A program made the position numbers and the translations under genes. A stretch of 24,720 bases of DNA from positions 1-24,720 of IMG/VR virus record IMGVR_UViG_3300003324_000164. One strand, 5' to 3'. The notes beneath the pieces were generated by a model that was not told the DNA's origin, did not search any database, and saw only the letters and a list, made by a program, of their open reading frames with translations. Shown here one piece after another: positions 2,282-22,413 of the stretch. The first letter of the stretch is position 1; the number at the start of each line of letters is the position of its first letter. Origin of the DNA: a virus.

Positions 2282-3654
2282 TCGTCAGTCTCCTTGCGGC
2301 GAACCTTTTTCTCGGTGTCCCGCACTCGGCGCTTCTTCTTGGCGGTCGCGGTGTGCCCCTCGGCACGCTGCCGCTTCGTCGCGGCGGCGTAAGATTTCTT
2401 CCCCTCGCTCTCGCGCTGTTCGCGGCGCGCCTCCGCGGCCCGGTCGCTCGTCTCGATGCCAGCGAGCCGCCCCGTGTCACCCCGGCGGATGCCCTTCGAT
2501 TTCTGGATGCCGCGATACAGGGGATATCCGACGCGCAGATTCGTCTGATCGAACGCGCTCGTTGGCGACCACGGCGCCCGCACCTTACCGAGCTCGCCCT
2601 GGCTGATGCGGGTGTTGAGCCGTTCGAGCGGGTCGAGCGTGCGCGCGTTCTTGAGCGTCTCGGCGACGCCTGCGCGCTCGGCCATCGCTTTGACCGCGGC
2701 GAGGTCTTTGCTCTGCCCGGTGCGCACCTTGCTCACTCGCTCGATGGCGCGGTACGTCCCGTCGGGTCTGCCCACCGGGGCGACGCGGCGCACGGTGTCT
2801 TTGGCGGCGTCGATGGCCTTCTCGTGCGCGGCCTGCAGCGCCGACCACCCGCCGGGCTTGCCGTCGAGCGGGCGCGCGTCGCGGTCGCGAAGCGCCGCGT
2901 GGTGGAGCTGTTTCAGGTCCCGGTCGTTCTGGCTCTCGGCACTCTTCTTCCGGAGCATCCGGATCGCCGTCTCGTGGTGCTGCGCGTCGTAGCGCCGGGG
3001 CGTCACCCAGATCTCTCGCCCCTTGAGCGAGGTGGCGATCTGCTCGCCGCCGGCCTCGATGTCCGCCGGGTCGAGCTCGCGGGCCCCGCCCTTGTTGGCG
3101 GGCGCGGCCGACGGTCGCCCCTGAGCCTTGCCGGTGCGCACGGCGCGCAGGGCCTGGCGCTTCCACATCGGGTCGAGAAACGCCTGCGCCTCCTCCGGCG
3201 ACAGCCGAATCGCGCCCTTGCTCTCGGTCGTGCTCACGGCCTGGATGTTGGAGTTGAAGACGCCCTTGACCGGGTTGTGCGCGTTGGGGACGCCGACGCT
3301 GCGCGCCGCCTTGCCGGGCTTGTCGCTCGTCATGCGCTGCCGAAGCAGGTCGAGCGACGTGTTCGTGAGGTTCTCCGCCGGCAGCTTGAGCTGCCCCTCG
3401 CGGCTCTTGTACACGGCCGCGTTCTCACTCTTGACCTGGAGCTTCACCTCTTGGTCCCGGGCCTGGGTCGCTTCCCGGATGGGCTTCTCCATCCGCTCGG
3501 CGAGCACGTCGAGGGGCTTCACCCCGCGCTGCGCCGCCTCCTCGGTCGCCTGCTTGACGGCCTGGTTGGGCACGAACCCTCGCCCGAATTGCGATTCGAC
3601 CCCGAGCTCCTCGAGCTGGCGGGGCAGGCCCTGGTAGCGCCGCCCCTCGCGCAC
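2278..3654 (-). CDS. Large ejection-type protein, C-terminal half after an in-frame amber (458 aa)
   Basis: The first usable start after the upstream TAG is GTG 3654, giving 458 aa. It lacks a visible ribosome site. The frame is the same as that of the 445-aa gene to its right. The 21 codons between TAG 3718-3720 and this GTG are open, Ala-rich and GC at nearly every third position, so the true product may be one protein of 925 codons. The sequence is hydrophilic and helical. It ends in a very basic tail (KKKRRVRDTEKKVRRKETDE), suitable for DNA contact inside the virion. Placed after the transglycosylase gene, it is probably an internal virion (ejection) protein. No enzyme motif is seen. The independent start is uncertain; the coding frame is not. 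Confidence 0.7.
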   Translation of the reverse strand: MREGRRYQGLPRQLEELGVESQFGRGFVPNQAVKQATEEAAQRGVKPLDVLAERMEKPIREATQARDQEVKLQVKSENAAVYKSREGQLKLPAENLTNTSLDLLRQRMTSDKPGKAARSVGVPNAHNPVKGVFNSNIQAVSTTESKGAIRLSPEEAQAFLDPMWKRQALRAVRTGKAQGRPSAAPANKGGARELDPADIEAGGEQIATSLKGREIWVTPRRYDAQHHETAIRMLRKKSAESQNDRDLKQLHHAALRDRDARPLDGKPGGWSALQAAHEKAIDAAKDTVRRVAPVGRPDGTYRAIERVSKVRTGQSKDLAAVKAMAERAGVAETLKNARTLDPLERLNTRISQGELGKVRAPWSPTSAFDQTNLRVGYPLYRGIQKSKGIRRGDTGRLAGIETSDRAAEARREQRESEGKKSYAAATKRQRAEGHTATAKKKRRVRDTEKKVRRKETDE

Positions 3655-3717
3655 CGTGTTCGCGGCGAGGTTCGCCCCGCCCTGCAGCGCCGCGACCGGC
3701 GCCGTAGCGAGCGCGCC

Positions 3718-5055
3718 CTACTTGGCGGCGTCGAGCACCCGGCGCGACGCGCCCGAGACGGTCGAGCCCGTGTCTCCCGTGGTCGCGAGCTCGACGCCCG
3801 CCTTGACCGCCTCGTTGCCGAGCTGGTGGGCGCCCGCGGCGACCGCGCCCTGGGCCGTCGTGCGCGCCGCGCCGAGCATCGAAGCGCCGACCCCGCCCGG
3901 GACGGCCGTAGGCGTCTTGCTCGTTACCCACTCCCACAGGCTGTTTGCGGGGTTCCAATGGCTGAGCGCCTCGAGGCCACGGCCCGCCGCCGCCTCCACG
4001 CCTTCTGCTGCGGCCTTGGCAGCGGGCGCGAGCGCGCCCACCACCTTGGCGCCGCCCTTGGCGAGGAGCTTGCCGCCCGCCTCGACGGCGCCCGGCACGG
4101 CGCCCACGACCTGGCCCGCCTTGACCGCGACGGGATGCTCTTCCCGAATCGCGTCCATGTCGTCGGCGTAATCGTCCGAGCCGATGCCCCCGACCATCTC
4201 GTCGTTGCCGCCGCCCATGGGCTTGGCGCCGGGGATGGCGGTCGGCCGCGGCGGGTAGTTCTTCGCGTTCTCGGCCTTCTTCTGCTTCGTGTACTCGTCG
4301 TCGTCGAACGCGCCCGAGCGCGCCACTTGGGAGGCGAGCCCGAAGTTGGCGAGCTCGTCGACCCCCATCACGTACGCGGTCGCCGTCTCGGCCGCCGGCA
4401 TGGCGCCCGCCTTGAGCTTGGTTCCGAGCGTGTCGAGCACCCCCGACGCGCCGCCGCTCTGCATCCACGGCGCCTTGCTGTAGCGGTACGGGGTCTTGCC
4501 CGCCTTGACTCCGGCGTCGGCGACCTGGCGCCACATATAATCGTTGTAGGCCTGATGGATCGAGTCGCCCGACTGGATGTTCATGACCGCGTCGGGCGTG
4601 AGCGGCATGTCGTAACCGAGCGCCTTGAGGATCTGCGGATCCTCCATGATCTTCTGGCGCACGGTCTGCGCGGGCGCGTCGTAGACGACCACGAGCCCGT
4701 TCGGGTTACTGAGCTCGCCCCGGATCCATTCGTCCTTCGCGGCCTGGTCGCCCTGCGGGTGCGTCGTCGAGGGCTGGATACTGAGCACCTGGGGCTGCAC
4801 CGGCAGACTCGGGTCGAGCTTGCGCTTGACGTCGTTCGCGAGTGAGTCGGCCGTGACCTGGGGGCCCTGGCTGATGACCTGCAGCTGGTCGCCCTCGGGG
4901 CGCGGCTGCCCGGCGCCGACGCCCTTGGCGAGGAACTGGTTCTCGAATTCCGTGACCGCGGCGAGCGCCTTCTCGCGCACCTCCGGCGACAGCTCGGCGC
5001 CCTGTTCCGCCAGGCGCTTTTTGACCCGTTCGTACTGCTGGGCGCTAATCGTCAT
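3718..5055 (-). CDS. Large ejection-type protein, N-terminal half ending at amber TAG (445 aa)
   Basis: It starts at ATG 5055, overlapping the transglycosylase gene stop as ATGA, and ends at TAG 3718-3720. It is the only gene from terminase leftward that ends in TAG, and the frame stays open after it. Residues 1-45 are helical and charged (MTISAQQYERVKKRLAEQGA). The middle has a Pro/Gly-rich stretch. The last third (about residues 305-445) has several Ala/Gly/Val-rich segments (VKAGQVVGAVPGAVEAGGKL, GAKVVGALAPAAKAAAEG) that could be amphipathic or membrane-seeking, as expected of proteins that form a DNA conduit across the cell envelope. The ejection role is inferred from position and composition. 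A nonsense mutation, a sequencing error or readthrough are all possible. Confidence 0.75.
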   Translation of the reverse strand: MTISAQQYERVKKRLAEQGAELSPEVREKALAAVTEFENQFLAKGVGAGQPRPEGDQLQVISQGPQVTADSLANDVKRKLDPSLPVQPQVLSIQPSTTHPQGDQAAKDEWIRGELSNPNGLVVVYDAPAQTVRQKIMEDPQILKALGYDMPLTPDAVMNIQSGDSIHQAYNDYMWRQVADAGVKAGKTPYRYSKAPWMQSGGASGVLDTLGTKLKAGAMPAAETATAYVMGVDELANFGLASQVARSGAFDDDEYTKQKKAENAKNYPPRPTAIPGAKPMGGGNDEMVGGIGSDDYADDMDAIREEHPVAVKAGQVVGAVPGAVEAGGKLLAKGGAKVVGALAPAAKAAAEGVEAAAGRGLEALSHWNPANSLWEWVTSKTPTAVPGGVGASMLGAARTTAQGAVAAGAHQLGNEAVKAGVELATTGDTGSTVSGASRRVLDAAK

Positions 5056-7292
5056 TGCTCCCCCAAATCGCGCAGCATGTCGTCATCGGCCGTGCTCGCG
5101 CCCTTACGCTTGGCTTCGCGCTCTTTCTGCAGCTTGAGCGCTGGGCTATCTGGGGCCTTCTTGGCGGCGGGCTTCTTCTCCCCTCCGCGGTAAAACGCCT
5201 TAATCGAGCCGACCGTGATCTCGCCGCCGTCGGCCGGGATCCACCCCGGGTTCTGCTGGCGAACCTTGTCGCCCCGCTTCGTGCCCGAGCGATACTGCTT
5301 AATCTCCGTGTCGTCGGGGCGCCCGACGTACGCCGGGGCGGCGTTGGCGATCGCGTAATCATCGCGCGTGCTCTTCGCGTCGAGCCCGAGCGCCTTGAAG
5401 CGCCGGATGCCGAGCTCGATCTGCTTCTTCGCGGGCAGCGCCCGATACTCGGCGGCGTTCTTCAGGCCGTACGCTTTCGCCGTCTCGTCCGTGAATTGGA
5501 AGATGCCGCTCGCGCTCGACCCCATGCGGTTGACCGCCGAGGGGTCGCCGCCGCTCTCGGTGCTCACGAGCGGGCGGAGCTGCTTGACGTCGAGCCCCGC
5601 TGCCTTGGCCTGCCGGGCGAGCTCGCGGTCGACGTCGTCCGGGTCAGCGTCGGGCTCGGCGTCGTTCGGCTCTCCCGCGTCGTCCATGTCCGCGTCGGGC
5701 TCCGCCTCCGCCGGGTCGGCTTCCTCGTCCACGTCGGTCGGGTCGTACTGCGCGCCGCCCTGCGTCTCGGGGTCGATGCCTTTGTCCTCGAGCCAGGCGT
5801 CGCGGTACTTCTTCGGCACGTTGCGCGCCGCGTAGGCGCGCAGGCCTCGCGCCGTGTCGGGGTCTTGCGTCGTGCTCGCGCTCTCCTCGATCGCGTCGAG
5901 GAAGTCGTAAACGAGGTTGTCGTCCTTGGCGACCCGATCGTTGATGATGCTGAGCAAGTCCTCCTTTCGGAGGTCGGAGAACCCGCCCTTGATGATGTTC
6001 GTGACGCGGTCGACGATCTGATCGACCGTGCTCATCGCGTCGAGGCCGAGCGCGACCGCGAGGTCCTTGTTCGACTGGGCGCCCTTGCTCCCGAGCATGT
6101 TGGGCAGCTCGAACGCGATTGCGAGGTCGTTGCCGGGGCGGTCGTCGGTGAGGACCTGGACGATGCTCGCCGCCGCCTTGCTCCGGGTAAACACGCCCGA
6201 GATGTCCTGATTGTCGAACGTCTCCTTGGCGTACGCCTCGCCGTCCTTGGCGAGGAGCGCGACGTCCTTGCGCGTGAGCGGCTTGGGCTCGCGCGCGGCC
6301 TGCTGCTTGGCGGCTTCCTGCTCGTCCTGAAACTGCTGGTTCATGGCCGCGTCGGGCCCGGCGCGCAGGCTCTTGGCGAGCTCGAGCCCCTTCGTCGCGG
6401 GCAGCCCCATCGCCGCCGCCGCCGCGTTCGTCTCCCCGACGCTCTCCTGCATGCGGTCGGGGTAGGCGCGCTGCAGCGCGCCGAGCGCAGGGTCGAGCCG
6501 GCGCCGGATGCTCTCTTGCTGGGCGCCGAAGTCGATGACGTTCTTGGGGACGCCGCCCATGATGTCGGGCGCGTCGGGCCCGCGCGTGGGCAGCTTGTCG
6601 CCGGGGGTGCCGTAGGTGGCCGCCACCCGATCGGCGACGGATTGCCCGCTCGCGTCGAGCTGGTCGCTGCCCGAGATGCCGCCCTCGTCGAGCGTCCCCC
6701 GGTCGAGCCCCGGGTAGCCGAGCGCCCCGAGCCGATCGAGCGATTGCGCCGCCGACTCCCCCGCCGGTGGCGCGCCGTACGCCTCCTCCATCGAGCCGTA
6801 GGCGCCGGCCGGCGCCTCTTCCCCGTAGGGCGAGGCCTGGGCCATGCGCTGCGCTTCCTGCTGCTGCGCCTCCGGCCCGTTCCAATCGATTTGGAAGCTC
6901 GGCAGCCCGTACTCGTCCTCGCCGAGATAGTCCATGTTCATGCCCGCCGCCTGCATGGCGGGCACGAGCCCGTGAATGCCCTCGACGTCGCCCGCGTCGC
7001 GGTACTTCTGAAACTCGCCCATCAGGGCGCGCTTCTGCGCTTCCTGCTGGGCTGCCGCCTCCGCCGCCGCCTTCTCGCGCTGCTGCTGCAGCTGCATCTC
7101 TTGGCGACGCGCCGCCCCCGCCTCCTCCATCCGGCGGAGCTCCTCGTCGACCTGATTGCGGCGCTTCGTCTCGGCAAACTGCTCTTGCATCAGCTTGAGC
7201 TTGTCGAGGCCGTACGGGTCATCGCCCCCGCCGAAGTCGATGGGGCGAATCGGGCTGAGCTGAAGCAGCGTGCTCGCGGCGTTAATCGGCAT
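5052..7292 (-). CDS. Internal virion protein with C-terminal lytic transglycosylase (SLT) domain (746 aa)
   Basis: This is likely an ejection protein that cuts peptidoglycan so that DNA can cross the wall. Residues 28-100 form a charged Gln/Glu/Arg-rich helix or coiled coil. Residues 100-330 are Gly/Ala/Pro-rich. Residues about 513-556 form an acidic linker rich in Asp, Glu, Pro and Ala. The SLT fold follows at about 570-660: LVSTESGGDPSAVN with the predicted catalytic Glu579, then GSSASGIFQFTDETAKAYGL (GIFQF at 596-600), and a late NAAPAYVG segment at 650-657 that matches the family's NAGP-type motif. The C-terminal tail is Lys-rich. The start ATG 7292 has GAGGT just upstream. The previous gene ends 6 bases before, and the next start overlaps the stop (ATGA). 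The SLT call is strong; the ejection role follows from context. Confidence 0.88.
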   Translation of the reverse strand: MPINAASTLLQLSPIRPIDFGGGDDPYGLDKLKLMQEQFAETKRRNQVDEELRRMEEAGAARRQEMQLQQQREKAAAEAAAQQEAQKRALMGEFQKYRDAGDVEGIHGLVPAMQAAGMNMDYLGEDEYGLPSFQIDWNGPEAQQQEAQRMAQASPYGEEAPAGAYGSMEEAYGAPPAGESAAQSLDRLGALGYPGLDRGTLDEGGISGSDQLDASGQSVADRVAATYGTPGDKLPTRGPDAPDIMGGVPKNVIDFGAQQESIRRRLDPALGALQRAYPDRMQESVGETNAAAAAMGLPATKGLELAKSLRAGPDAAMNQQFQDEQEAAKQQAAREPKPLTRKDVALLAKDGEAYAKETFDNQDISGVFTRSKAAASIVQVLTDDRPGNDLAIAFELPNMLGSKGAQSNKDLAVALGLDAMSTVDQIVDRVTNIIKGGFSDLRKEDLLSIINDRVAKDDNLVYDFLDAIEESASTTQDPDTARGLRAYAARNVPKKYRDAWLEDKGIDPETQGGAQYDPTDVDEEADPAEAEPDADMDDAGEPNDAEPDADPDDVDRELARQAKAAGLDVKQLRPLVSTESGGDPSAVNRMGSSASGIFQFTDETAKAYGLKNAAEYRALPAKKQIELGIRRFKALGLDAKSTRDDYAIANAAPAYVGRPDDTEIKQYRSGTKRGDKVRQQNPGWIPADGGEITVGSIKAFYRGGEKKPAAKKAPDSPALKLQKEREAKRKGASTADDDMLRDLGEQ

Positions 7293-13878: not shown

Positions 13879-14790
13879 TCACGCATTGCTGAACAGGATG
13901 CAGCGGGGGTTGACCCAGCCGCGCGTCCACCGCGCCGTAATGGCGTAGTTCATCATCGTCTTGTCCTCGGTCACCCACGTGTTCGATTTGGGCTTGCGCC
14001 GCCAGAACCACATCAGGCCGAGGTCGGCGTCCGTGATGAGTGCCCAGTTCGTGGTCGTGTTCGTCCAGTACTTGACCGGCACGCCCTGAATGCTGAGATC
14101 ACGGTTGATGACGTTGATCGCGTTGAACGCGCCCGGGGTCGGGTCGTTCGAGCTGCCGAGCACCTCGCGCCAGACGCCCCACTGCTGCACGGGGTAAACG
14201 GCCTTCTTCGCTTCCACGCCGTCGATGAGGCCGTCGTGCCCAACCTGCTGCATGAGCTGAGCGTTGGCGATGACGAGCGCCGCCTTGCTCGGGCTCATGG
14301 CGGTGGCGAGCATGTTCGAATACGTGCCGCCACCGGGCAGCACGTGCGAGGTCGACGCGAGCGGCTGCCCGTCGCCGCCCACGAACGAGCTGCTCGTGGC
14401 GCGCACGAGAATCAGCGTCGCGTCGAAGTCGGCAAGCTTCCACAGCGACCGGCTGTTGCGCTTGGCCGCCATGATGACCTTGTCGTACTTCATGTCTTCG
14501 AGAGCCTCGTCGCTCACGATCATGCGCTGGCCGTAGGTGCGCGCATTGAACCGGGTGAGCGGGCCCTCGTAGATCGTCCCGACGGGGATACTCTCGCCTT
14601 CGGGCTTTTCACCCGCGAGGCCCGAGCCTGCGATCTCGTAGAACTCGACATAGTTGTCGGCCATGCTCTTGACGGTCATCCACTTGGTGAAAACCGCTTT
14701 CGAGCCGTCCGATCCGCTGTCGTCGGTGTCGATGTCCTCGAGCGTCTGCTTGAGCGCGAGGGCCGCTGTGCTGGTGAAAACTTCACTCAT
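13879..14790 (-). CDS. Major capsid protein, HK97 fold (303 aa)
   Basis: It builds the icosahedral shell. The N-arm (residues 1-40: VFTSTAALALKQTLEDI, then FTKW at 34-37) is followed by an E-loop-like region (about 45-80), the spine segment RMIVSDEALEDMKYDKVIMA (about 88-108), and an A-domain with NVINRDLSIQGVPVKYW. The end has WALITDADLGLMWFWRR, then ITARWTRGWVNPRCILF. The late R.RW..GW.nPR pattern is typical of HK97-type capsid proteins. About 300 aa is normal when a separate scaffold exists, and one lies upstream. ATG 14790 has TGAGGA upstream, spaced about 7. The gap to the previous gene is 10 bases. No protease gene is visible, so maturation cleavage is not indicated. Confidence 0.85.
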   Translation of the reverse strand: MSEVFTSTAALALKQTLEDIDTDDSGSDGSKAVFTKWMTVKSMADNYVEFYEIAGSGLAGEKPEGESIPVGTIYEGPLTRFNARTYGQRMIVSDEALEDMKYDKVIMAAKRNSRSLWKLADFDATLILVRATSSSFVGGDGQPLASTSHVLPGGGTYSNMLATAMSPSKAALVIANAQLMQQVGHDGLIDGVEAKKAVYPVQQWGVWREVLGSSNDPTPGAFNAINVINRDLSIQGVPVKYWTNTTTNWALITDADLGLMWFWRRKPKSNTWVTEDKTMMNYAITARWTRGWVNPRCILFSNA

Positions 14791-16165: not shown

Positions 16166-17068
16166 TCACAAAACCTTCTTCTCTCGCAGCCGTTTTCCCG
16201 AGCCATTCACCCACTTTTTGATCGCGTCCGCCTCCGAGAGGTCGCTGTACGCGGCGATCGCCATGCGCCGGAGCTCGGGCGTCAGCGTGATGCCGTCGGC
16301 GCCGCGCGACGAGCTGCCCGAATTACCTCCAGCGCTCACGCCCGAGAGGCGGCTCTTCTCGCTCGCGGTCGGCGCCGTCTTGGGGCCGAGCTTGAACGTG
16401 GTCATCGCTTCGCGCATCACCTCGTCCACGAGCTCGTTCGTCACGGCGTCGCCCATCGCCTGCCGGCGCCGGAACGTCGCCTCGGCGTACTGATAGGCGC
16501 GCTGATTGCCGTACACCTCCGGGTAACGGTTGACCCACACCTGTTGCGCGGATTCTGCGCGCCGATTCTGCGCGTCGCGCGCGATGCCCGCCTGGATGTG
16601 GATCTTGGTCTTCTCGGCCTCGATGTCGCGCGCGACTTTCTCGTAGTAGCGCTGCCGCTCCTCCGTCCAGGTGCCCGCCTTGATCTCGGCTTGCGCAGCC
16701 TGGTAGGCGTGGCCCTGCTTTTCATACACGGCGTCGAGCGCGGCCTCGTACGGGTCTTTCCCGTCTGCCGGGGGCGCCGGGGGCGGCGGCTGGTTCACGC
16801 GGGCGCGCAGCTCGGCGAGCTCGCGTTCGAGCGTGCTCTGTTTCTCGCGGAGGGTCTTTACCTCCTCGCCGTTCTTGCGCCCCTCGTCGAGCAGGCGCTT
16901 GGTTCGTTCGTCTTTCTTGCGCTGCCGGGTGAGGCGCTCCTCGGGGCTCGCCGTCGCTGGCAGCTCGTCGAAGGCGTCGTCTTTCTCGGCGCTCTCTTTG
17001 TCGTCGTCCGAGAAGGGGATCGCACTCGACTGGCGATCGGGGTCGCCCTGCATGAAGTCACCGCTCAT
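16166..17068 (-). CDS. Scaffolding protein candidate (300 aa)
   Basis: The protein is acidic, helical and lacks Cys, as many phage scaffolds do. Residues 1-45 are acidic (FSDDDKESAEKDDAFDELPA). Residues about 45-95 form a coiled coil (ERLTRQRKKDERTKRLLDEG, LREKQSTLERELAELRARV). A Pro-rich hinge, NQPPPPAPPADG, follows, then a long helical region. The C-terminus is basic (WVNGSGKRLREKKVL), matching the common arrangement in which a basic C-terminal helix binds the coat protein. It lies between portal and capsid genes. ATG 17068 is 3 bases after the GroES-like gene stop. The call comes from composition and order, not from a sequence match. Confidence 0.75.
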   Translation of the reverse strand: MSGDFMQGDPDRQSSAIPFSDDDKESAEKDDAFDELPATASPEERLTRQRKKDERTKRLLDEGRKNGEEVKTLREKQSTLERELAELRARVNQPPPPAPPADGKDPYEAALDAVYEKQGHAYQAAQAEIKAGTWTEERQRYYEKVARDIEAEKTKIHIQAGIARDAQNRRAESAQQVWVNRYPEVYGNQRAYQYAEATFRRRQAMGDAVTNELVDEVMREAMTTFKLGPKTAPTASEKSRLSGVSAGGNSGSSSRGADGITLTPELRRMAIAAYSDLSEADAIKKWVNGSGKRLREKKVL

Positions 17069-17071
17069 AGA

Positions 17072-17749
17072 TCACCATGTGTCGTTGATGTAGACGCTTT
17101 GCTTTTTGCGGATCCCGTCGATGATCTTGTCCTCGCCCATGTCCGCAACCTGGTGTTGGTAGCCGTCGATGCCGCAATCGATGATGCGGCACTGGCCCGC
17201 GCGGATGCGCTCCATCAGCGACTCGTCGCTCGCCAAGTCTGCCTCGCGCATCACGAGATAGAACATGGTGAAGTTGCTGAGCTCCTCGCAGCGCCGCGCA
17301 AACGGCACGTTCTTGTTCGTGACCACGATGTCGCCGAGCTCGACGCCGTGGCTCATGAGGCGATCCATCGCCGTGAGCCCTGCGCTGATGAGCACGCCGC
17401 GATTGCCTTCCTGCTTGTCTTTGAGCTTTGTCGTGGTCGGCTTGATGATGCCGCCCGTCGTCTTCTCGACCGCCTCCCCCTCGCCGTGGTCGATGGGGAA
17501 AACGTGGATGCGGTCGAACAGCGCCTGACTCGCAAACGCCCCGTCGGGGATCCCGTACTTGAGCCGGTGCTTTTCGAGCAGTGGCGGCAGCCCGAGCGCG
17601 CCGGGCGGGCTCATGCGCGACTTGATGAGCTCGGTTCGGCGCTTGGCCGCCTCGAGCTCGTGGTCGACGAGCTCGATCTTCTCGCCGGGAGACGACCACG
17701 CCGAGGTTTTCTCGATCTGCGTGGGGAACGAATAAATCGTCTTGGTCAC
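17072..17749 (-). CDS. Protein with central GroES-like co-chaperonin domain (225 aa)
   Basis: Residues about 78-152 follow the GroES pattern: LFDRIHVFPID (strand 1), a loop EAVEKTTGGIIKP (mobile-loop equivalent, GGIIK at 99-103), then KQEGNRGVLISAG (GroES: RGEVLAVG) and HGVELGDIVVTNKN (GroES: VKVGDIVIFND). GroES caps GroEL through the mobile-loop tripeptide IVL; here it is I-I-K, so binding may differ. Extensions of about 77 residues before and 73 after the domain have no recognised motif. GTG 17749 overlaps the previous TGA as GTGA. T4 gp31 is a known phage co-chaperonin needed to fold its capsid protein, and this gene sits in the head module, so a similar role is a reasonable inference. Confidence 0.7.
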   Translation of the reverse strand: MTKTIYSFPTQIEKTSAWSSPGEKIELVDHELEAAKRRTELIKSRMSPPGALGLPPLLEKHRLKYGIPDGAFASQALFDRIHVFPIDHGEGEAVEKTTGGIIKPTTTKLKDKQEGNRGVLISAGLTAMDRLMSHGVELGDIVVTNKNVPFARRCEELSNFTMFYLVMREADLASDESLMERIRAGQCRIIDCGIDGYQHQVADMGEDKIIDGIRKKQSVYINDTW

Positions 17750-18158: not shown

Positions 18159-20360
18159 TTACGCGGCCTTGGGTGGGGGTTGTGGGCGAGCCGGTGGCTT
18201 GCCGTTGTCGTTGCCAGGCTTGGGGGCTCCGCCCGGAGGCGGGGGGCCGCCCGGAGGCGCCATGCCGGGGGGCGGCATGGGCGGGGTCGTCGGCATGCCG
18301 AACATCTGGGGCGGCTGGGGGGGCTGCCCCATCAGGTTGATGAGGTCGAAGCGGTTACGCGCCTCGAGGCTCTTGCTAATCACGGCATGCTTGAACGCGA
18401 AGTTGGCGGCGAGCTCGGGGACGGCGTTCGGCATCTGCACGAGCGCGTCGGCCTCGCTGATGCGCTGGCTCGTGCTCGTGAACTTCAGGTCGGCGCTGAT
18501 CTCGACGTCGTAGGGGCGATCGTACATCTCGCGGCCCACGCTGAAAACTTGGCGCCCCATGGGGCCGAGCATCGGGTCATGGTTGTTGACCGAGAAAAAC
18601 TCCGCGTCATCGAGGAAGATGGCGTTGAGCGCCGCGTTGTTTTCGAGCACCTGAGAGAGGAAGTCGGCGTATTTGCCCGTCGGGACCGAGAGCATCTTGG
18701 TTGCCTGCTCGATGCGCGCCGACAGGCCTTGCGCCGTTTCGCCGCTCTTGCCCGATTCGCCGCTCAGCACTTCGGGGGTGTTGCTCACGGTGTTGCCGTA
18801 GCGGACGAACGACTCGATGAGGCTCAGGAGCTGCGGGTTCGCCTCCCCGAAGTCGAGCGGCATCAGATCCTTCTGCAGGTCGACCGCGCCCTCCACCTTG
18901 ATGAAGCCGCCCGGCTTGATCTGAAACTTCTCGGGCAGTCGGAGCTCGCCCTTGGCGAGGAACTGCTTGAAGTTGGCGAGAAACGCCTGATCGATGAAGG
19001 CCTGCAGCGCGACGTTCGCGGCGCGGTTCAGGTCGGCGTGAATGAGGCCCGTGCCCATGCCGAGGATGCCTTGAATGGGCTCGATGTTGACGCCGTGCGC
19101 GAACATCTGAATCGGCCGCGTCTCGGGCGGGCGCGGCTGAGCGTTGGGGTTGCCCTGCATCCACTCCGGCATCTGCGGCTCGGGCGGGGGCGGCATCTCC
19201 TCGACGGCGCGCGCCATGATGATGGCTTGCGCCGGGCCGTCGCCCGTCGGATCCATCGAGTGGCCCATACTGAGCGCCTCGCGCTTGGTAGCCTCCTGCT
19301 GCTGCATGAACTGCTGCTGCTGCGCGAGCCCCTGCTGGTACTGCTGCAGCTGCCCCATCTCGAACTCGTAGCGGCGCTTGTCGTAGGGGTCGACGCGCTC
19401 GTGGATGTTGAGCGCCATGACCGTTTTCGTCTGCCGGTCGATGATCACCTTGCAGTAGCGATCGCGCGGCTCGTTGGGCTCACCGTTGGGGCCCTTCTCG
19501 GTCGACGGCGGCAGGTTGATCCATCCCTCGTACTGGATGAGCTCGTACGCGCTCGCCTTGTACGCGGAGGAGTCGACGCCGAGCGCCTTGTCGACCGTTT
19601 CGCGCATCTCCTGGCTCACGCCCTCGTCCCACGCGGGCGGCATGTGCTTGAGCACCGTCCCGACGTCTTCCCACGTGCCGTCCTGCCCGCGCAGCTCGTG
19701 GCCGTCCATCTTGATGATCTTGGCGACCCACGACACGTCCGAGTAATCCGGCATGGTCGAGACGTGCGCGTTGGCGCACACGAACTCGTTTGCGGTCAGG
19801 ATCTCGTGTCGGTTGTACCGTCGCTTAGGATCCCAGTACGAGTGGCACGTAACGTCCCCGAACAGGTCGAAGATGAGCAGACCGCGATGGCCGAGCTGCC
19901 GTTTGAAGTCTTTGATTCGCTTGCGAATCTGCCAATTGCCGTGAAGCGACAGCAGTTTCGCGACTCGTTCGTCATCAGGTCCGATAGGAGTAACGCCAAA
20001 GACATTGGTCCAGTTCCCAAACAGCTCGTAGGCTTGCCGGAACACCATCCGGATCGTGTTCTCCATCAGGATGGGCACGTGCGCGTTGCTCATCTTGTCG
20101 AGCGGCGGATCCTTCGGGTCGAGCGTGCCCGAAAAGATCTTCCACACGTCGCTCATGTTCTTGCGGAACTTGCCCGTCGCCTCCCACGCCGCATCGAAAT
20201 CGGTCATGCATTTCATCCCGATGCGCTTGATCGCGGCCTGCCCCTCGGGGTGCTTCTTGAAGTCGGCGACGAGGTTGATCGCCTCCTCGTCGTACGAAAA
20301 CGGCTCTTCCGCTTTCGTCTCTTGCCCGAGCTCGAACACGGTCTCTTCAGGTTCGTCCAT
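18159..20360 (-). CDS. Portal protein (733 aa)
   Basis: The portal ring at one vertex is the channel for DNA packaging and ejection. Support: it follows the large terminase and precedes scaffold and capsid, and has the size of large podophage portals (P22 gp1 about 725 aa). Residues 60-140 hold DAAWEATGKFRKNMSDVWKI and SNAHVPILMENTIRMVFRQA. Residues about 430-500 hold GILGMGTGLIHADLNRAANV followed by a helix (QAFIDQAFLANFKQFL), typical of the wing/stem helices. A Gln-rich insert (YQQGLAQQQQFMQQQ) lies near residue 330. The last 50 residues are Pro/Gly-rich low complexity. ATG 20360 has GAGG upstream. Fold-level assignment rests on context and helix pattern. Confidence 0.8.
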   Translation of the reverse strand: MDEPEETVFELGQETKAEEPFSYDEEAINLVADFKKHPEGQAAIKRIGMKCMTDFDAAWEATGKFRKNMSDVWKIFSGTLDPKDPPLDKMSNAHVPILMENTIRMVFRQAYELFGNWTNVFGVTPIGPDDERVAKLLSLHGNWQIRKRIKDFKRQLGHRGLLIFDLFGDVTCHSYWDPKRRYNRHEILTANEFVCANAHVSTMPDYSDVSWVAKIIKMDGHELRGQDGTWEDVGTVLKHMPPAWDEGVSQEMRETVDKALGVDSSAYKASAYELIQYEGWINLPPSTEKGPNGEPNEPRDRYCKVIIDRQTKTVMALNIHERVDPYDKRRYEFEMGQLQQYQQGLAQQQQFMQQQEATKREALSMGHSMDPTGDGPAQAIIMARAVEEMPPPPEPQMPEWMQGNPNAQPRPPETRPIQMFAHGVNIEPIQGILGMGTGLIHADLNRAANVALQAFIDQAFLANFKQFLAKGELRLPEKFQIKPGGFIKVEGAVDLQKDLMPLDFGEANPQLLSLIESFVRYGNTVSNTPEVLSGESGKSGETAQGLSARIEQATKMLSVPTGKYADFLSQVLENNAALNAIFLDDAEFFSVNNHDPMLGPMGRQVFSVGREMYDRPYDVEISADLKFTSTSQRISEADALVQMPNAVPELAANFAFKHAVISKSLEARNRFDLINLMGQPPQPPQMFGMPTTPPMPPPGMAPPGGPPPPGGAPKPGNDNGKPPARPQPPPKAA

Positions 20361-20366
20361 GGTGCC

Positions 20367-20558
20367 TCAAATGTCGTCGACGCACTCTTGTCGGCACGCA
20401 TCGCAGCAATCGCAGAGCGTCGTCTCGTCGCCGTAAATGTCGGCCTTGTACGGGCAGACGTGCAGAGGGTTGGCGAGGTTTTTCTGCCAGCGAATCGAAC
20501 AGAGGTGGCCGCTGCACTTCGGCATCCGCTGCTCCTCGATCGGAAGCTCGTCGCTCAT
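20367..20558 (-). CDS. Cys-rich small protein (63 aa) between MCP-like fragment and portal
   Basis: ATG 20558 overlaps the previous TGA (ATGA). Eight Cys occur in 63 residues, at 15, 20, 35, 49, 51, 52, 55 and 59, with a dense C-terminal cluster CDCCDACRQEC. This looks like a metal-binding or disulphide-linked miniprotein. The spacing (C15-x4-C20, then C49-x-C51-C52-x2-C55-x3-C59) does not match a named zinc finger I recognise. The portal start lies 6 bases beyond its stop. It could be a DNA-contact accessory of packaging, but function is unknown. Confidence 0.62.
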   Translation of the reverse strand: MSDELPIEEQRMPKCSGHLCSIRWQKNLANPLHVCPYKADIYGDETTLCDCCDACRQECVDDI

Positions 20559-20911
20559 GTCAGATCACACCAGTCCGAGTGACCGCCGCCGACGCTCGCG
20601 CCGCCGCACGTGCAGCGCTTCACCGCAGCGACGGGCCGCGTGCACTTCATGAGCTCCTCCGGCATCGGGTTGAGCTTCTCGTCGTGCTGCGGCGGCACCT
20701 GCCAGATCCCGCCGCCGAGATAGGCCCAGTTGGCCTGGGTCGCGGCCTGCTGATGGGTGAGGATTTCCCCGCTGGTCGTGGTCGTGGTCGTCAGCAGCCA
20801 ACGCGGGAACGCCTGTGTGGCGCTCGCGAGATATTGCTGCTGGTCGACGCGCGTCATGTCGTCGAGCGTGGCCTTCAAGGCGTGTGCCGCCGTGCTGCTG
20901 AAAACGGTCAT
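20555..20911 (-). CDS. Small protein with MCP-like N-terminus and Cys/His cluster (118 aa)
   Basis: ATG 20911 overlaps the large terminase stop as ATGA. Residues 3-19 (VFSSTAAHALKATLDDM) match capsid residues 4-20 (VFTSTAALALKQTLEDI) at 12 of 17 positions, and FPRW at 35-38 parallels capsid FTKW at 34-37. The coding DNA over the matching 16 codons is also similar (37 of 48 bases by my count). Downstream the proteins diverge. The C-terminus has C90, C100, C102, H111 and C115, a possible zinc-binding site. So it looks like a partial duplication of the 5' end of the capsid gene that gained a new C-terminus. It may interact with capsid, scaffold or portal; no function is known. Confidence 0.75.
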   Translation of the reverse strand: MTVFSSTAAHALKATLDDMTRVDQQQYLASATQAFPRWLLTTTTTTSGEILTHQQAATQANWAYLGGGIWQVPPQHDEKLNPMPEELMKCTRPVAAVKRCTCGGASVGGGHSDWCDLT

Positions 20912-22413
20912 GTTCCGTACCCAAATCCGCTCGCTTGCCGCGGCGGCTCCTCGTCGTTGTCGTTCTCCGGTCGATCGAATTCGTGCGCCTGCATGTAGAC
21001 GCTGCCCCGGCCGCGCGAGGCGCGAGCAGCGGCGTAGGCGAGCATGTCGAACCAGTGCTTGAGCGGGCTCTTCTTGTCCGGCACCGTCGAGTCGTTCTCA
21101 TCGACGGCGATACCGGCGAGCATCTCGGCCGTCTTGCGGCAATCGCGAAACAGCATCAGCCCGGGGGGCTTGTCGCGGTCGTAATCGCGCAGCCGCTCGC
21201 TGATGCGCTCGGCGTTACGCGCGATCGAGGCCTTGTCGGCGGGCTGCCAGTAGATGCCCATCGACGCGAACACGGCGGCTTTGCTCTTGCCGCTGTCGCC
21301 GCGCTCTTCCCACAGTTGCGTGTCTGCAACACCGGTGAGGCGGCTCTTGTTTTCGCGCTTGTCCCAAAACCCGAATTGCTGTTCGAGCTCCCGCACGCGC
21401 GCCGCAACCTCCGCGTCGCGCATCAGGCGGAAGTTGAACTCGTAGAACTGATACAGGTTTTCGTCGGGGTCGAGCGCGAACCAGCCGATGACGCCGGGCG
21501 CCTTGAAGCCCCAGTCCATCGCGCGGAACTTCGGCCAATCGCGCGGGATCTTGAACGGGTCGATGAGGTGAACCGTCGGGTTGTAGTCGTCCTCGAAAAA
21601 CCCGCCCTCGACGCTGTTCCAATCGCCGTACAGGTAACGCGCGCGCATGTGCGCGGGCTTACTGAGCAGGCGGATCTTGTACTGCGCGACGAACGCCTTG
21701 TCGGGGTTGTCGTCGAGCAGCGCCGGCAGAAAGAGCCGCGTGCGGTAAGCGACGCTGCCCGTCGCCGGGTCGTGCACGCGCTGCCGGAGCAGCACGTTCC
21801 CCTTGGGCTCGGGGTCGACGAACCGCGTTTTGAGCCAGCCCGGCGCGGGGTTACTCATCAGCCGCGTGCGAAGCAGCAAGCTCAGGATCGGATCGGCGGA
21901 GCGAACGCGCCCGTCGAGCTCGTCGAGCTGAAACTCCTCGAACTGATACGCCTCGTCGAGCGCGAGGTGCGTGTACTGCTTGGAGAGGTAGTCCTGATGG
22001 CTGTCGTGCTCGCGGCAGTGGCCAAACGTGAACTTGTACCCGCTCTCGAACGTCCAGCAGTGCCGCTCCTTCGAATAGACCGCGTTAGGGTCGAACTTCG
22101 GGAACATCCGCATCGAGCGATCGATGTTTTCGAGCAGCTGGGGCATCGAACGGCGCAAATGCAGCGCGTGGCCTTCCGATTCGCCGCGACGAATGGGATA
22201 CTTGCGGCAGAGGTCGGCGATCCACTCCGGCAGCTCGTCGAGCAGCTGCCCCGTGCAGCGCGCGTGCTCGATGATCGCCTGCGTGACGATCGGATCCCAC
22301 AGCAGGGTGAGGCTCTTGCCGGGGCCAGCGCTTCCGCCGCCCAAAACCTCATCAGCCGTCGTCTGGTGGAATTTCGAGCTCCACGGAGACGGGGTGTAGA
22401 TGCTCCGATCCAA
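20908..22413 (-). CDS. terL: Terminase large subunit (501 aa)
   Basis: ATPase and nuclease of the packaging motor. Walker A is GSAGPGKS (27-34) and Walker B is HLALDEA (149-155, with acidic D153/E154). LDDNP (233-237) and LYGDWNSVEGGFF (261-273) are conserved linker features of the family. The RNase H-like nuclease has D300 in RAMDWGF, D364 in GVADTQLW and H453/D456 in KHWFDML. The start is TTG 22413: an in-frame TAG lies four codons upstream and no other start lies before Walker A, so the unusual start is nearly forced. A GGGGGG run 7 bases upstream may serve as ribosome site. The stop overlaps the next ATG. Length is in the normal range for TerL. Confidence 0.93.
   Translation of the reverse strand: MDRSIYTPSPWSSKFHQTTADEVLGGGSAGPGKSLTLLWDPIVTQAIIEHARCTGQLLDELPEWIADLCRKYPIRRGESEGHALHLRRSMPQLLENIDRSMRMFPKFDPNAVYSKERHCWTFESGYKFTFGHCREHDSHQDYLSKQYTHLALDEAYQFEEFQLDELDGRVRSADPILSLLLRTRLMSNPAPGWLKTRFVDPEPKGNVLLRQRVHDPATGSVAYRTRLFLPALLDDNPDKAFVAQYKIRLLSKPAHMRARYLYGDWNSVEGGFFEDDYNPTVHLIDPFKIPRDWPKFRAMDWGFKAPGVIGWFALDPDENLYQFYEFNFRLMRDAEVAARVRELEQQFGFWDKRENKSRLTGVADTQLWEERGDSGKSKAAVFASMGIYWQPADKASIARNAERISERLRDYDRDKPPGLMLFRDCRKTAEMLAGIAVDENDSTVPDKKSPLKHWFDMLAYAAARASRGRGSVYMQAHEFDRPENDNDEEPPRQASGFGYGT

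Follow-up and report, generated by a model that had tools for sequence, protein, structure and literature searches.

In P22, 80alpha and SPP1, the scaffolding protein grips an N-terminal helix of the coat protein. The C-terminal helix-loop-helix of the P22 scaffold binds the coat N-arm, R293/K296 pairing with D14/E15/E18 (PMC9965877); in 80alpha, helix alpha1 of the N-arm is packed by the C-terminal helix of the scaffold (PMC5644958); and in SPP1, the N-terminal helix of the major capsid protein (MCP) is held by the scaffold until release (PMC6813328). Small proteins are also known to act at this interface. SaPI1 CpmB and the CpmB-like Rcm copy the contact element of one of the two partners (PMC5644958, PMC12409344), and Ccm of SaPIbov5 is a second protein derived from the capsid protein that alters capsid assembly (PMC8569155). 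This report concerns a small protein, encoded between the terminase large subunit (TerL) and portal genes of a viral contig, that begins with a segment resembling the N-arm of the MCP of the same genome. The window is the whole 24,720-nucleotide stretch analysed (IMG/VR record IMGVR_UViG_3300003324_000164, positions 1 to 24,720).

Resemblance of a small slot protein to the capsid N-arm

The features considered are collected in Table 1. An earlier note, made from the sequence alone, had placed a 118-aa open reading frame (ORF) at 20911-20555 on the minus strand, and its coordinates, strand and frame are all correct. The ORF starts with ATG, overlaps both TerL upstream and a 63-aa ORF downstream by ATGA, and has a GC content by codon position (0.60/0.54/0.87) that fits the neighbouring genes; judged from this gene context, it is real. 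The protein had no family match in Pfam, PHROGs, NCBIfam or PADLOC, and tblastn against 50,697 phage records returned chance-level matches only. The Cys/His cluster described earlier at its C terminus is present (C100, C102, H111 and C115) and, judged by sequence, could possibly form a zinc or other metal site.

Table 1. Coordinates of features in the window and, where a locus is named, in related loci
Feature	Coordinates	Strand	Basis
Small slot protein (N-arm-like segment, body domain, Cys/His tail)	20555..20911	-	118 aa; ORF list; L001 twin, 96%
N-arm copy, residues 3-19 (VFSSTAAHALKATLDDM)	20855..20905	-	Identity to MCP residues 4-20 at 12/17 positions; decoy and profile scores
Probable weaker N-arm extension, residues 20-41, ending AFPRWLLT	20789..20854	-	P 0.001 (MCP consensus of relatives) and 0.11 (MCP of this genome); 2-residue gap required
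Body domain, residues 53-95	20627..20755	-	GGxYxVxPxHxExL...TRP pattern; similar stretches in L008 and L101, weaker in L013
Cys/His cluster, residues 100-118 (CTCGGASVGGGHSDWCDLT), possible metal site	20558..20614	-	Sequence only
TerL, upstream border of slot	20908..22413	-	phrog_979, E 1.3e-23
Portal protein, downstream border of slot	18159..20360	-	phrog_1216, E 5e-8
Presumed scaffolding protein, 300 aa, C terminus ..RRMAIAAYSDLSEADAIKKWVNGSGKRLREKKVL	16166..17068	-	Three genes before MCP; conserved basic C terminus
MCP (N-arm, residues 1-37)	13879..14790	-	Pfam PF25209 Phage_capsid_4, slightly below cut-off; annotated capsid homology; 28 relatives aligned
Original N-arm segment in MCP, residues 4-20 (VFTSTAALALKQTLEDI)	14731..14781	-	Alignment, N-arm profile, relatives
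First slot ORFs with leader MTESVTPPDPPLVDPETGETPPLSPP (starts)	L016 3459; L023 1820; L101 5680; L020 3817; L008 4215		

Alignment of V3-M19 of the small protein with V4-I20 of the capsid protein gave identity at 12/17 residues and 37/48 bases, reproducing both counts of the earlier note, and the separation of about 6 kb between the two genes is 6121 bases from start to start. The F-x2-W motif said to follow in register is present but requires a 2-residue gap to align. This extension of the match (..AVFPKWM vs ..AFPRWL) had a P value of 0.001 against the capsid consensus of the relatives and of 0.11 against the MCP of the same genome; because both comparisons were tried, it is treated as supporting evidence only.

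A shuffled-sequence test, proposed earlier as a possible refutation, showed that the match beats chance: of 20,000 sequences obtained by shuffling the small protein over its whole length, 2 reached its local score of 60 with the MCP. A capsid N-arm profile scored the small protein at 17.2 bits (E 0.0016, for about 1 million residues), or 17.2-17.3 bits counting its twin in the related locus L001, with the best of 161,240 shuffled decoys at 12.4 bits. With clear MCPs set aside, its matches in the 8062 six-frame ORFs of the window and loci were a pair of distant MCPs (20.2 bits) and the small protein of the window and L001, after which the next real ORF scored 6.8 bits; no other non-capsid ORF in this set matched convincingly. 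Its ungapped 17-mer score of 55 compares with 43 for the true distant capsid orthologues of L038/L039, and no other non-capsid ORF reached 35. The N-terminal resemblance between the small protein and the MCP is not due to chance.

The copy retains the hydrophobic F, A, A, L and L and an acidic pair (DD; ED in the MCP), and has His at the nearly invariant L11 of the MCP. Net charge over the N-terminal 29 residues is -1 in the small protein vs -6 in the MCP, and the acidic face is therefore weaker in the copy. Structure models predict a helix in both proteins (small protein, residues 7-18; MCP, 7-19) at low confidence (mean pLDDT 37 for each), for which reason both models were excluded from fold searches. 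An MCP profile had no match among PDB sequences.

Measured against known classes, the protein carries the N-arm segment of the MCP of this phage group (17.2 bits) and is not a full-length capsid domain (about 300 aa), having 118 aa and a similarity that ends by residue about 40. Nor does it have a capsomer-forming HK97 fold of the Ccm type, the N-arm alone being in common, and it is not satellite encoded, its gene lying inside the phage head operon in overlap with TerL and the 63-aa ORF. Position between TerL and portal, together with body-domain similarity (35% over 40 aa with the L008 protein), places it among the GGxYxVxPxH cargo of that slot.

Origin of the copy in a variable slot

Loci with related MCPs numbered 41, of which 21 have both TerL and portal. 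Between these two genes the N-arm copy occurs in L001 only and is absent in the other 20, and no further copies were found in 40 full relative records, in five distant annotated phages (compared with their own N termini) or in L038; the copy is confined to one lineage of uncultured tailed phage. The L001 twin (118 aa, 96% identity) lies on a near-identical contig and differs by 5 silent and 5 amino-acid-changing codons, leaving the first 30 codons untouched; the 11 changes all fall beyond those codons (P 0.04, for one lineage and two near-identical contigs).

The slot itself is variable. It holds HNH_3 endonucleases in L014, L020, L030 and L035, DUF3310 proteins in L013 and L035, and a Cys-rich protein of the 63-aa type in the window, L001, L007 and L009, and is almost empty in L028. 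In the window the Cys-rich protein occupies 20367-20558 on the minus strand (CSGHLC..CPYKADI..CDCCDACRQEC), with a possible Cys-rich variant in L017. A 171-aa slot ORF of L033 (3771-4286) looks RuvC-like by eye (MICGLDLSLTASAIV..) and has no Pfam match. In phage DSL-LC04 (L099), a large gene annotated as a PcfJ-like protein (3644-6121) stands at the TerL-portal position; the slot therefore holds cargo in distant relatives too.

Residues of about 42-95 of the small protein match the product of L008 4215-4586 at 35% over 40 aa, with an E value of 1e-5 in the pairwise comparison and of 0.0015 when the records were searched. A related body in L101 (5680-5955) was found via the L008 match, the relation to L013 is weak, and a search with alignment A4 for more body-domain proteins returned L001 only. 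Body-domain homologues whose N terminus lacks capsid resemblance thus exist (L008, L101 and probably L013); the earlier note had named homologues of this kind as grounds for refuting its reading, which they do in part, and the N-arm is therefore a lineage-specific add-on. As the body domain bears other N termini in other slot proteins, the small protein is, on sequence comparison, a mosaic of N-arm, slot body and Cys/His tail built in the variable TerL-portal cargo slot. Elsewhere in the slot, the first ORF joins the leader MTESVTPPDPPLVDPETGETPPLSPP to differing bodies (in full in L016, L023 and L101; in part in L020 and L008), which suggests N-terminal module swapping.

In the earlier note, part of the capsid gene was taken to have been duplicated and fused to a metal-binding tail. 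An N-arm-like segment is indeed fused to an unrelated body with a Cys/His tail, but duplication is not demonstrated by the DNA (P 0.06-0.29). At the 12 identical residues, 8/12 codons are the same vs 6.0 expected from codon usage (P 0.19), whole-base identity under back-translation simulation gave P values of 0.29 and 0.06, and true MCP pairs within the group have a comparable proportion of identical codons. Base similarity starts at codon 3, excluding the start region and the upstream sequence. The DNA of the copy matches its own MCP at 37/48 bases and the MCPs of L023/L024 best, at 39/48. A recent in-place duplication was therefore rejected as unproven: base identity is explained by the amino acids and codon usage, and the own capsid gene is not the best match. 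Given the peptide, the copy likely descends from a capsid gene; the resemblance may go back to an ancient shared ancestor, to uptake from a different phage or to convergence.

Possible functions of the copy

The MCP N-arm is strongly conserved in the group (28 relatives aligned) and acidic after the helix. The presumed scaffold had no family match, so we infer its assignment from position and from the character of its C terminus, the last 40 aa of which have a pI of 10, with the basic end conserved across loci. In the distant L038, the N-arm still carries KETLEE and the scaffold-like end is still basic. A GroES-like co-chaperonin gene (window 17072-17749, minus strand; phrog_3188 E 0.002, NCBIfam GroES E 0.0018) lies between portal and presumed scaffold, and annotated GroES genes occupy the equivalent place in the distant phages L095-L099. 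Locus L085, whose contig was binned in a Polyangiaceae MAG, has a gene for an MCP of 88% identity (5365-6273) as well as scaffold, GroES-like and portal genes; this binning is possibly a host hint and possibly misbinning.

By analogy with P22, where coat D14/E18 receive the scaffold, the N-arm helix of the small protein may imitate the scaffold-docking site of the coat. The protein would then dock at low copy on the scaffold, or wherever a capsid N-arm is ordinarily bound, and would in this way be taken into the procapsid or adjust the assembly of scaffold and coat. Assembly control, as proposed earlier, is plausible because coat N-arms dock the scaffold in P22, 80alpha and SPP1. Speaking for docking are the exclusion of chance, the occurrence in viral contigs of the motif STAAxALKxTL[DE] at capsid N termini of the group, in the twin gene and in one unrelated family, the conservation in the group of both the N-arm and the basic C terminus of the presumed scaffold, the hydrophobic positions and acidic pair kept by the copy, the helix predicted at low confidence in both proteins, and the unchanged first 30 codons. 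The single lineage, the 20 relatives without a copy, the weaker acidic face, the His in place of MCP L11 and a scaffold assigned by position and C-terminal character speak against it. We therefore put docking on scaffold or capsid sites forward tentatively; it is the likeliest single function, with a neutral mosaic ranked close behind. If docking is true, a separate copy of the coat N-arm would serve the phage in regulating or loading its own procapsid. The N-arm would then be a portable address tag, the copy would offer a natural peptide with which to probe the contact between scaffold and coat, and it would become clear how a variable slot could supply the head with different bodies.

Slot recombination may instead have set the start of a capsid gene before a cargo body, leaving a segment with no capsid role or merely a tolerated N terminus. 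This neutral origin is a possible reading, which we hold with slightly less confidence than docking. It agrees with the modularity and high variability of the slot (HNH endonucleases, DUF3310 proteins, the Cys-rich family and the leader MTESVTPPDPPLVDPETGET.. on differing bodies), with body homologues bearing other N termini, and with the limitation of the copy to one lineage. Set against it are the 12/17 residues kept in frame at the extreme N terminus despite silent sites that look randomised (8/12 codons); the silent sites imply that the event was not very recent, and the persisting identity thus favours some constraint. Even a neutral mosaic would be a clear reuse of a capsid-gene start in a hypervariable slot.

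It is unlikely that the copy serves as a decoy, drawing off some foreign protein directed at the capsid N-arm, for example a defence protein that senses capsids or a satellite's capsid remodeller. Precedents come from SaPI1 CpmB, which competes with the scaffold at the coat (PMC5644958), from Rcm, proposed to compete likewise (PMC12409344), and from CapRel, described as directly sensing a capsid protein (PMC9712102), and lineage-specific cargo in the slot would suit such a role. No satellite or defence partner of this phage is known, however, the small protein has no PADLOC match, and recognition by CapRel is not tied to the N-arm in the part of that account drawn on here (PMC9712102).

Independent rise of an alanine-rich amphipathic helix that matches by general helix preference is similarly improbable. 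Helices rich in Ala, Leu, Lys and Thr are common, and descent is unsupported by DNA similarity. A scan of 2.9 million viral contigs for STAAxALKxTL[DE] found 41 stretches, comprising the MCP N termini of the group, the L001 twin gene and one unrelated family with GSTAANALKSTLD inside a large protein. Against convergence, none of the 161,240 decoys reached the score of the small protein, both matching segments are N-terminal and within one genome, and P was 0.001 for the FP[KR]W extension against the group consensus. In 84,980 genomes, the same pattern gave mostly transmembrane segments (EamA-like by eye), along with a single unrelated Bifidobacterium stretch and one MCP on a Polyangiaceae MAG contig; none of these matches was an N-arm mimic.

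That the GroES-like co-chaperonin/GroEL machinery recognises the N-arm, and that the small protein borrows this tag for folding, is very improbable: a GroES-like gene does lie in the head module and in the same place in distant relatives, but relatives without the copy keep it too, and nothing in this analysis ties the N-arm itself to a chaperonin.

Comparison with known systems

A limited literature search, which is not proof of absence, found no other case of a detached coat N-arm in a slot protein. The slot proteins of L008, L101 and L013 share the equivalent position and a related body domain with the small protein, but lack a matching Cys/His tail, and their N termini (e.g. MTESVTPPDPPLVDPETGETAPLSPP) differ and do not resemble the capsid protein. 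In P22, 80alpha and SPP1, the helix gripped by the scaffold is part of the coat itself and not of a separate small protein. None of CpmB, Rcm and Ccm corresponds to an N-arm that stands apart from the coat in a slot protein of the phage itself. Like SaPIbov5 Ccm, the small protein appears to draw on a capsid protein, but Ccm is a full HK97-fold homologue that builds pentamers, whereas here only the first 17-40 residues are common and the rest is unrelated. CpmB, which is satellite encoded, and Rcm act on the scaffold side, whereas here the coat N-arm side would be imitated by a gene in the phage's own head operon. It is conceivable, though doubtful, that the small protein is a phage-encoded mimic of its own coat's scaffold-docking arm, carried on a swappable and possibly metal-binding body as competitor or passenger; if so, it would be the mirror image of CpmB, the satellite protein whose competition is on the side of the scaffold.
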